Shown in pieces: positions 19,913 through 22,229 of a stretch of DNA of 22,229 bases (within the stretch, counting starts at the first letter, position 1; the number at the start of each line of letters is the position of its first letter). Below the pieces are notes generated by a model. The model was not told where the DNA came from. It ran no database searches and saw nothing but the letters and a program-made list of their open reading frames with translations. This DNA is from a virus: positions 1 through 22,229 of the IMG/VR virus record IMGVR_UViG_3300024517_000119; one strand, given 5' to 3'. Both the position numbers and the translations under genes were made by a program.

Positions 19913-21162
19913 TAAACTATTCCCATCTTTGGATATTTTATGTTGCTAGCAAAGTTGGTTGATTGATTCAATCCAACGGCTAGATACCGAAACGCATCCG
20001 AGCCATGCGAGGCCCAGGTGTGTTTGGGTTTATTTTGTATGTGTCCTGTTCTGTCGTTTCGTTCCCATGAATATTGTCGCAGGGCTTCCAAGCCCAGTTT
20101 GCATTTTTCTTTGTCAAACCAGCAACGAGGCAGAATCATGCGTGCTGCATTAATCCCGTCCTCAATCAAGAGCTTGGGAACAATGGTGAAATATAATCCT
20201 AAATTATTGGCTATTTCCACTCTGCTTTGTCCTGATCCTAATTCCCTTACTTTGAGGTCATGGGGGCCAAAATGATTCTCATATTTAAAATCCTTGCTTG
20301 CCAGGTACTTAACATAATGTTCTAAACTTCGACCTGAATTTTCATAATATTCAATCAAATGAATACGGTTGCCGACATTCTGGGAAAACCAGATGGCGGT
20401 TGCATCTCCTATGCCAAGGTCCCAATGCGTGTTCACTTGGTACTGGGGATCGTATTCTATTTTCGTTATCTGTCCCTTCTCCGTAATCTCGGAGATCGCT
20501 CGGGTATATATTCCCCCTAATACCCCTGCATCGAAGGAACATTCAAATTCCTGTTCGTATTGCTCTGGGGACATGAGGGCTTTTGAGGCTTCGAGTTCCT
20601 CTGCGTCTATAATTTTTGTATCACTCGCCTTGAATACAGAGGAATACCAGTCCTTTGAGTTTCTTGCGTTCTCAAAAAGGTCAAAAAAAGCGTTATGCCC
20701 TGCTGGAGTGCCAATCGCTATCAGCCAACCTTTCCTGTCGGACAAGGCAGGTCGCAAGACCTCCCATATCGCAGGGGGCATCATCGCAATTTCATCAACA
20801 ACGATGCCATCAAATCTCATTCCTCGTAGATTCTGGTAGGCATCCGCTCCAAAGCATTGGATTCTTCTCTTGCCAGGAAGATCCACCCTTAATTCTGTTT
20901 CATGATAATGAACATTGGGGATGGTTCCTGTATATTCCATCAAATAGCTCCAGGCGGTCTGTTTCGCCATCCTGTAGGTAGGGGCTATATACCCATACTT
21001 GGGGCTAGAGAGGGTGTTGGTCATACATTTTCGGATCAGTTCGTTGAGAACAAGGCAGGTTTTTCCAAACCTCCTGTGTGCCACCAGAACATTCCACCTT
21101 TTCAGGTTGTCATGTATGATCTTTTGATGTTCCCTCGGCTTATACGGTATCGTTATCTTCAT
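19912..21162 (-). CDS. terL: Terminase large subunit (ATPase-nuclease)
   Basis: 416 residues, complete. The ATPase domain has Walker A AHRRFGKT (28-35), Walker B GIVVDE (119-124; catalytic pair D123-E124) and the coupling motif IAIGTPAG (148-155). The nuclease domain has the acidic residues D248 in NTHWDLGIGDATAIW, D302 in FGPHDLKV and D389 in SHGSDAFRYLAVG, fitting the RNase H-like terminase nuclease. It drives DNA into the head through the portal and cuts the concatemer. The ATG at 21162 has no good ribosome-binding site and lies inside the last codons of the overlapping ORF (stop 21142-21140), so translation is probably coupled to it. Confidence 0.95.
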   Translation of the reverse strand: MKITIPYKPREHQKIIHDNLKRWNVLVAHRRFGKTCLVLNELIRKCMTNTLSSPKYGYIAPTYRMAKQTAWSYLMEYTGTIPNVHYHETELRVDLPGKRRIQCFGADAYQNLRGMRFDGIVVDEIAMMPPAIWEVLRPALSDRKGWLIAIGTPAGHNAFFDLFENARNSKDWYSSVFKASDTKIIDAEELEASKALMSPEQYEQEFECSFDAGVLGGIYTRAISEITEKGQITKIEYDPQYQVNTHWDLGIGDATAIWFSQNVGNRIHLIEYYENSGRSLEHYVKYLASKDFKYENHFGPHDLKVRELGSGQSRVEIANNLGLYFTIVPKLLIEDGINAARMILPRCWFDKEKCKLGLEALRQYSWERNDRTGHIQNKPKHTWASHGSDAFRYLAVGLNQSTNFASNIKYPKMGIV

Positions 21163-22060
21163 TACTTTTATGCTCGAACAGAACTTGGTCCGCTAAAGCC
21201 GTTGAACCCCTTTTTTTCCTGTGCTGATAGCCACCCTTGTTATTCGGACCTATCCTGCTGTCCTGCTGTGTCGGCGTTCTCCACATTGAGGGTTTGGATA
21301 ATTGATTGCCCGATGTAGAACGGGATTTGAGGGACGAGGCTGTTTCCGAGTGCTTTAAGTCTGTCCACCCTGTGGGGTATCCCATGAGCCACTCGACCCA
21401 CATCGGGTTCAACGCTCCACCACCCTTGATCCATTGATCCTTGTCGCTCCTCGCCACTTTCTGTGGCAGTAAATTCCGATCCGAATTGACCACGGCTTTT
21501 CCACTGTCCTTCCAGTCCCTCGCTGTGGGTGTCGGCCATGTCCTGTGGGGCTTCTCGCTTCGGCTGTCCGTTACGGCTGCCGTCAAACTCCATCCGTGCG
21601 TTCCCTTTACCATGCTCGGAGCTGGCTGTTCGTAATACGCCATCCTTGGTGTCGCTCTCGGTGTTGGCCACATCGTTATCATTTCTGAAAGATAGCCCGT
21701 TTTCCTTCCCGTTGCCGCCCTGCTTGGCCTCATGTGTTTTCTCACTATGTGATCCATGTTTGTCGGAGTGGGCAATAATCCAGATTCTTTCCCTTTGGTG
21801 GTTGGCACCGATGCTCGAAGCTGAAATACTAAATGTCCTTGTGGCGTAACCTTCACCTTCCAGGTCCTCGATAACGGAGTCCAGACCGAGTTTAATGTGT
21901 CCAGCAACATTCTCTCCAATGACCCAAGTGGGCCTTGATTCCTTGATAATTCTAAACATTTCTGGCCAGAGGTGTCTTGGATCTTCAACACCCTTTTGCT
22001 TTCCCGCAACCGAGAAAGGCTGGCAGGGATAGCCACCCGTGATAATGTCAACTGTTCCAA
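21140..22060 (-). CDS. Overlapping +1-frame ORF within the methyltransferase gene (306 aa)
   Basis: A 306-codon ORF fully open in the frame +1 to the methyltransferase, starting TTG at 22060, with AAGGGA upstream and an in-frame stop five codons before. It ends 23 bases inside terL. The translation reads like a real family seen as separate phage and prophage proteins: MLLDTLNSVWTPLSRTWKVK, VTPQGHLVFQLRAS, GLLPTPT (94-100), WPTPRATP (131-138), WPTPTARDWKD (175-185), ALNPMWVEWLMGYPTGWTDL (216-235) and WRTPTQQDSR (260-269). No function is known to me. Either it is a true overlapping gene or a by-product of unusual constraint on the methyltransferase; the length in AT-rich DNA and the full set of family motifs argue for the former. 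Confidence 0.6.
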   Translation of the reverse strand: MEQLTLSRVAIPASLSRLRESKRVLKIQDTSGQKCLELSRNQGPLGSLERMLLDTLNSVWTPLSRTWKVKVTPQGHLVFQLRASVPTTKGKESGLLPTPTNMDHIVRKHMRPSRAATGRKTGYLSEMITMWPTPRATPRMAYYEQPAPSMVKGTHGWSLTAAVTDSRSEKPHRTWPTPTARDWKDSGKAVVNSDRNLLPQKVARSDKDQWIKGGGALNPMWVEWLMGYPTGWTDLKHSETASSLKSRSTSGNQLSKPSMWRTPTQQDSRIGPNNKGGYQHRKKRGSTALADQVLFEHKSNEDNDTV

Positions 22061-22229
22061 TGTCCGTTCCCTTCAATTTTTTTATATCCCCATATATGGG
22101 TACATCTGGCCAATGCTTCTTCAGCACCTTCTGGCAGTACGGATCTATTTCGCAAAAGGCGGATGTTTCAAATCCCCCCGTTCTTTCCAGTCCGAGGGAG
22201 AAACCCCCTATGCCAGAAAAAAGATCAAG
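21240..22229 (-). CDS. C5-cytosine DNA methyltransferase (5' end cut by window)
   Basis: 329 residues visible; a few N-terminal codons are missing. An internal GTG at 22127 is in frame but not the true start, because motif I (LDLFSGIGGFSLGLE) lies upstream of it. Motif IV, with the catalytic cysteine, is GGYPCQPFS (Cys at visible residue 69), motif VI is ENV (106-108) and motif VIII is NHQRERIW (144-151). The region between motif VIII and the end is unusually polar, with ADT/ANTESD-like repeats, where the target-recognition domain normally sits. Motifs IX/X are RVDRLKALGNSLVPQ and the end. It transfers methyl from S-adenosylmethionine to cytosine C5. No partner restriction enzyme is visible, so it is probably an orphan anti-restriction modifier. 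Confidence 0.93.
   Translation of the reverse strand, partial: LDLFSGIGGFSLGLERTGGFETSAFCEIDPYCQKVLKKHWPDVPIYGDIKKLKGTDIGTVDIITGGYPCQPFSVAGKQKGVEDPRHLWPEMFRIIKESRPTWVIGENVAGHIKLGLDSVIEDLEGEGYATRTFSISASSIGANHQRERIWIIAHSDKHGSHSEKTHEAKQGGNGKENGLSFRNDNDVANTESDTKDGVLRTASSEHGKGNARMEFDGSRNGQPKREAPQDMADTHSEGLEGQWKSRGQFGSEFTATESGEERQGSMDQGWWSVEPDVGRVAHGIPHRVDRLKALGNSLVPQIPFYIGQSIIQTLNVENADTAGQQDRSE

Follow-up and report, generated by a model that had tools for sequence, protein, structure and literature searches.

At one end of the window, by which we mean the whole 22,229-nucleotide stretch of viral DNA analysed here, two overlapping reading frames, alpha and beta, very probably encode a C5-methyltransferase of M.EcoHK31I type, split and with nested genes, whose beta subunit bears an array of reshuffled recognition modules. 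As we read the sequence, one stretch of DNA would give rise to a two-subunit C5-cytosine methyltransferase, with one translation start for alpha and another, independent one for beta inside the alpha gene. Alpha would be the catalytic domain, connected to its motif X helix through a flexible linker that the cassette DNA encodes in the alpha frame, and beta would dock on alpha through an N-terminal block and provide motif IX together with the target-recognition modules. Which short DNA site or sites the alpha-beta complex methylates would depend on the cassettes present, and exchange of whole cassettes between phages would alter the specificity while both frames stay open. On balance, we also favour a wider proposal, that of a modular DNA-recognition code in doubly coded DNA, present in phages and in bacteria of many phyla: each cassette, open in two frames, would be a beta module and a piece of alpha linker at once, cassettes would be traded between phages and so reprogram the methylated sites, and the family would be a large one whose beta half often goes unannotated.

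The alpha frame (21240..22229, minus strand) has lost its 5' end at the contig edge and retains motifs I, IV, VI, VIII and X of a C5-cytosine methyltransferase catalytic subunit; PCQPFSVAG, ENV, QRERIW and RLKALGNSLVPQ are all present in the window translation. It was matched by Pfam PF00145 (E=6.8e-45, residues 1-169) and by phrog_363 (E=8.6e-83). Motif X, RLKALGNSLVPQ, is located at 21327..21362 (minus strand), and its LGN..P is invariant in 47 homologues. A sequence search for motif IX found none in alpha, nor in frame across the nested class. The large domain (residues 1-158) was mostly confidently predicted by AlphaFold, and Foldseek matched about 159 columns of the alpha model to M.HaeIII (1dct) and M.HhaI. 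Residues 160-298 (21336..21752, minus strand) form a predicted disordered linker with pLDDT values mostly of 31-48, and the motif X helix at residues 301-322 was modelled at a pLDDT of about 93. The linker shares its DNA with the beta cassettes and the motif-IX block of beta. An alpha identical to that of the window over all 329 residues was found in locus L002 (IMGVR_UViG_3300024520_000762), which extends slightly farther upstream than the window.

The beta ORF (21140..22060, minus strand) lies in the +1 frame and comprises 306 codons, from a TTG at 22060 to a stop at 21140, the stop included. The shift places the wobble base of alpha at codon position 2 of beta, as the initial annotation had stated. 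The two frames with their named motifs and landmarks, and the exact pairings between them, were all found as that annotation had described them, and the open length of 306 codons was likewise confirmed. The span of 21240-22060 given there for the +1 frame was too short, as the ORF runs 100 bases beyond the alpha stop, and the start codon is TTG rather than ATG. The description of the DNA as AT-rich fits the phage, the window being 41% GC, and not the segment itself, which is 52% GC as against 40% in the rest of the window. Beta was matched by phrog_1008 (E=1.8e-32, residues 2-241), and searches with it against Pfam, NCBIfam and the PDB returned no match. Its 3' end overlaps the start of the terminase gene (21162) by 23 bases; this gene belongs to a phage structural block on the minus strand (451-21162) made up of terminase, portal, scaffold, major head protein and tail fibre genes.

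A likely ribosome-binding site in the sequence, AAGGGA (22068..22073, minus strand), is situated 7 bases ahead of the beta TTG. Among the homologues, a Shine-Dalgarno (SD) sequence coupled to a beta-frame start was observed in 41 of 53, compared with 8.8 expected from alpha; the SD pattern, as defined here, was missing in 12 of the 53. In most homologues the region upstream of beta contains a stop, an AGGAG-like site and an ATG, all inside alpha, for example TAAAGGAGCTGACTTATG. These data bear on the possibility that the selected +1 product is made by frameshifting, as an alpha-beta fusion with no start of its own. Beta lies wholly in the +1 frame over motifs IV-X, a shift close to motif VIII would produce a chain resembling the single-chain enzymes, and in one group of homologues the +1 frame is free of stops for a good distance ahead of the usual start; nonetheless, the fusion is quite improbable given the excess of beta-frame ribosome-binding sites and starts (41 of 53), the in-frame stop just ahead of the beta start in most of those homologues, and the conservation of a beta N-terminal block over motifs IV-VIII that a late shift would not need. 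This block (TSGQKC...TWKVKVTPQGHLVFQL; 21818..22027, minus strand) is conserved in 70 aligned betas, and substitution by codon position points to constraint on both frames in the region that it occupies.

For the analysis of the +1 frame, 80 viral loci were collected by means of the alpha protein only, resulting in 56 non-redundant loci and 54 usable genes, and the null expectation was obtained by shuffling the synonymous codons of every alpha gene separately. In the span from the PCQ motif to the LGN motif, 368 stops in the +1 frame were expected in the 54 homologues and none was observed, whereas the third (+2) frame contained 1056 against 1093 expected, as by chance. The window alone had 0 stops against 4.9 expected, and not one of 1000 synonymous-codon permutations was that low. 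In single-chain and canonical methyltransferases, +1 stops occurred mostly at chance level, with the exception of one canonical enzyme (L259; 5 versus 11).

Substitution patterns changed with the overlap. By alpha codon position 1/2/3, the values were 0.273/0.189/0.495 in the alpha-only region, 0.229/0.133/0.306 in the core overlap and 0.298/0.103/0.214 in the overlap of the IX/X block. The overlapped cassettes gave 0.208/0.118/0.418 by beta position, and since position 2 was the slowest, the alpha wobble base changes least of all; a closely similar pattern, 0.166/0.139/0.373, was seen in cassettes located after the motif-IX block. When the window was compared with its close relative L013, alpha wobble differences were found at 7 of 70 codons in the overlap and 22 of 47 before it (Fisher p=9e-6), an approximately five-fold lower level of change in the overlap. 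Seven further wobble comparisons agreed in direction (p 4e-6 to 0.012), all of them sharing the window and hence non-independent. Past the alpha stop, the fourth cassette of the window differed from L056 at 0/0/10 sites by beta codon position 1/2/3.

It could be argued that alpha codon use and repeats (VADT..S giving WPTPTA) are enough to leave the +1 frame open, with no second protein. The words VANTES/MADTHS do recur in alpha and become PTP when read in +1, but synonymous permutation, in which the alpha protein and its codon usage stay unchanged, still yielded the 368 stops, the wobble positions of alpha are the slowest in the cassettes, the cassettes go on in the beta frame past the alpha stop with changes mostly at third positions, and the mostly chance-level stops of the single-chain and canonical enzymes argue the same way. 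These results refute the reading without a second protein, to which we assign next to no probability.

The converse reading, in which the cassettes have beta as their sole real product and the alpha frame there is accidental, accords with the observations that cassette substitution tracks beta almost alone and that alpha is predicted to be disordered over this region. In a reverse test, beta codons were shuffled and alpha-frame stops were counted within cassettes. The 375 cassettes inside alpha contained none against 636 expected, a zero owed in part to the selection of loci for an intact alpha, although beta was the query that retrieved about half of them; the 32 cassettes after the motif-IX block, mostly past the alpha stop, contained 136 against 97 expected. 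An accidental alpha frame is very improbable in view of this difference between cassettes inside alpha and similar ones outside it; by this test, the alpha frame is kept open where alpha must reach motif X and not elsewhere. The stop depletion, the suppressed wobble variation, the conserved internal ribosome-binding site and the third-position change past the end of alpha uphold the suggestion of a real overlapping gene pair that had been made in the initial annotation. Selection on both the alpha and beta frames, and with it the reality of the pair, is strongly supported by these patterns, and on the same grounds we consider the existence of the beta gene to be near certain.

Beta is built of the conserved N-terminal block, followed by cassettes and a motif-IX-like block, LNPxWVEWLMGYPxGWTDL. 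The initial annotation was silent on the cassette array and on a possible function of beta. A total of 408 cassettes were delineated in 113 non-identical betas, of which 407 were long enough for clustering at 65% identity, resulting in 88 families (60 with more than one member). The cassettes are 30-45 residues long and mostly open with W/L-x-T-P; most betas have 2-5 of them, in varying number and order, and some cassettes are located past the alpha stop and are read in the beta frame only. The order in the window is F18-F6-F2-[IX]-F32. Cassette 1 (family F18, LPTPTNMDHIVRKHMRPSRAATGRKTGYLSEMITM; 21671..21775, minus strand) is identical in nucleotides (100%) to cassette 1 of L013, whose later cassettes differ from those of the window. 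Cassette 2 (F6, WPTPRATPRMAYYEQPAPSMVKGTHGWSLTAAV...; 21539..21670, minus strand) is 89% identical in nucleotides to a cassette that is fourth in L089, and cassette 3 (F2, WPTPTARDWKDSGKAVVNSDRNLLPQKVARSDKDQWIKGGGA; 21413..21538, minus strand) is 92-94% identical to cassettes of L062, L089, L088 and L005. The motif-IX-like block LNPMWVEWLMGYPTGWTDL (21356..21412, minus strand), which is encoded over alpha GRVAHGIPHRVDRL, was aligned by hhalign to single-chain phage enzymes. Cassette 4 (F32, WRTPTQQDSRIGPNNKGGYQHRKKRGSTALADQV...; 21143..21283, minus strand) lies mostly past the alpha stop, and the alpha frame has stops here. The beta ends of L052, L071 and L074 possess an extra module without alpha overlap, RTPTA.D...YAARIL...KRSS...TLSM.VAMEEL...EFVEYL.SQT.PK.LSE.SGI..TTVEHWFRR...PSI.DWN.IK.

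Evidence for exchange came from close relatives. The window, L005 and L013 have a common core of 91-94% identity and share single cassettes at 92-100%, with unrelated cassettes in between; cassettes 3 and 4 of the window are 92-95% identical to those of L005, and cassettes recur in other orders and on other backbones. A global test for near-identical cassettes in diverged cores failed as proof of transfer, as only 1 of 324 near-identical cassette pairs had a core identity below 75%. Exchange is therefore argued from cassette order and from close trios rather than from distant transfer, and the exchange observed in these sequences is among related phages.

The position of the cassettes is informative when compared with mycobacteriophage single-chain enzymes such as Fancypants gp73 (L256), in which a single frame encodes motifs I-VIII, then LLPTPSAADGGGG.../LLSTPQARDYKG... 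cassettes, then AAFPEWMMGWPAGWV and motif X. The PTP cassette arrays of these enzymes vary in number and order among phages; the mycobacteriophage contigs L266-L295 contain such variable one-frame arrays after motif VIII, and their single-chain methyltransferases are likely a multispecific family in their own right. Since the single-chain cassettes lie between motifs VIII and IX, the beta cassettes are placed at the position of a target-recognition domain. The beta motif-IX block aligned to the in-frame motif IX region of the single-chain phage enzymes with an hhalign probability of 95% (E=4e-8), and the beta profile matched these enzymes in HMMER (E=4e-4, scaled to 100,000 sequences) with an alignment limited to the motif-IX block. 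A cassette HMM made from nested betas reached whole-protein E values down to 1e-6 against the single-chain enzymes, with weak single-cassette matches and no shuffled control among the matches listed. By eye, beta LNP.WVEWLMGYP.GWT resembles the canonical LTPRECxRLQGFP, and canonical phage enzymes carry LTPRECWRLQGFP in frame.

We considered whether beta, though real and nested, might have a job other than DNA recognition, for example in regulating alpha or in blocking host restriction. The AlphaFold model of beta alone was poor (pLDDT 53) and found nothing among PDB structures at E<=0.001 in Foldseek, so a recognition-domain fold for beta is only putative; the sole match of the beta profile to PDB sequences, Gp16 (E=0.6), was dismissed as chance. 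The TL consensus of C5-methyltransferase recognition domains, P(STCA)PT(ILV)(TASV) (PMC2413257), was matched by 0 of 407 cassettes and was dropped as proof of such domains. The low-confidence model and the absent consensus favour another role, against which stand the placement of the cassettes at the recognition-domain position of single-chain enzymes, the motif-IX-like block that is present in beta and missing from alpha, and the cassette exchange, which is the pattern expected of recognition modules. We regard a different role as improbable, and these comparisons make it likely that the beta cassettes are target-recognition modules.

The pair is widespread. One genome scan identified 344 bacterial relatives, and beta was nested in +1 within alpha at 78 of the 79 bacterial loci examined, the remaining one ending at a contig edge; two loci taken as candidates for non-overlapping betas, L234 and L237, were rejected, both being nested and missed by the motif pattern. 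The family had been described in the initial annotation as separate phage or prophage proteins, and wherever it was examined we found the same nested frame instead. Three observations had been named there as telling against an overlapping pair, and none was found in full: synonymous variability, if normal, was to count against it, and was suppressed; frequent +1 stops in homologues were absent (0 versus 368); and a lack of standalone homologues without the methyltransferase frame was found only in part, for no stand-alone beta gene occurred among the loci examined, including the 79 bacterial ones, and cassettes without the alpha frame did occur, solely downstream of the alpha stop or fused in frame in single-chain enzymes. 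Bacterial hosts of the pair include Clostridia, Proteobacteria, Bacteroidota, Actinobacteria, Planctomycetes, Nitrospirota and others, and the named phages include Paenibacillus phage Shelly, Escherichia K1ind2, Burkholderia BcepC6B, Salmonella SEN5, Mycobacterium Hades and Lacticaseibacillus R23.9.

Annotation of the pair is uneven. Both alpha and beta are annotated in Escherichia K1ind2, and alpha alone is annotated in RefSeq at both of two intact E. coli loci (A16, E21), where beta is open. In Escherichia phage P AB-2017 (L252:22-702), the annotation kept the beta frame only, as a 'putative Mte8-like protein', and not alpha. In E. coli EC20 (L298:2363-3532), the methyltransferase is annotated as two incomplete pieces and the adjoining MT-A70 gene is marked as frameshifted; a Pseudodesulfovibrio MAG (L237:4616-6471) has two alpha genes in tandem that differ in subtype, and a nested beta is clear in the second. 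A widespread methyltransferase family is thus probably annotated with half its enzyme, and where alpha alone is annotated, a prediction of specificity from its 'variable region' would read a linker. The cassette array would be a natural parts list for C5-methylation at chosen sites, recognition by each cassette becomes a directly testable question, and the pair would offer a clear natural case of modular shuffling working in two frames at once.

At this locus beta is nested in alpha in a different frame, and this would be a further likeness to M.EcoHK31I of E. coli (YGGCCR), whose small gene probably lies inside the large gene in another frame. According to PMC3404938, two polypeptides are required in M.EcoHK31I, of which the large subunit has motifs I-VIII and X and the small subunit has motif IX, and the predicted recognition domain is placed in the large subunit. 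Alpha is like the large subunit in having motifs I-VIII and X with motif IX absent, and beta is like the small subunit in its motif-IX-like block. In contrast, we propose that the recognition part is in beta, and the available description of M.EcoHK31I in PMC3404938, with which our comparison was made by description rather than by sequence, includes no cassette array. PMC3404938 also describes M.AquI as a C5-methyltransferase naturally split into two subunits, the smaller with motifs IX and X; unlike M.AquI, motif X stays in alpha here and the genes overlap in different frames.

In Bacillus phages, a single enzyme combines several recognition domains as a defence against many restriction systems (PMC12707154), and the multispecific enzymes of these phages (M.SPRI, M.phi3T and kin) have tandem exchangeable recognition modules (PMC12707154; PMC8936443). 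Beta is similar in its tandem exchangeable modules, with cassettes that precede motif IX and a putative recognition role; unlike beta, the Bacillus phage enzymes are single chains in a single frame, and the beta cassettes are without the TL consensus. By analogy with these enzymes, self-methylation against several host restriction enzymes would be a plausible use of the pair to a phage. M.phiBssHII is a single chain encoded in a single frame. Its recognition domains are at separated positions, as cited in PMC8936443, and the beta cassettes are similarly divided, some preceding the motif-IX block and some following it. The mycobacteriophage single-chain methylases (Fancypants gp73) are like nested beta in having PTP cassettes and an EWMMG..GW motif-IX block between motifs VIII and X, and unlike the nested pair in that all of this is in one frame and the +1 frame is not conserved. 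The same nested frame is represented by phrog_1008 and by gp56 of Paenibacillus phage Shelly ('g55 internal gene'), annotated in a few phages as a hypothetical protein or DNA methyltransferase with no role given. No description of an array of cassettes within a nested frame turned up in the literature searched, which covered few subscription papers. The split and nested arrangement is known in kind, and what appears new is the cassette array in doubly coded DNA and its breadth over phages and many bacterial phyla.
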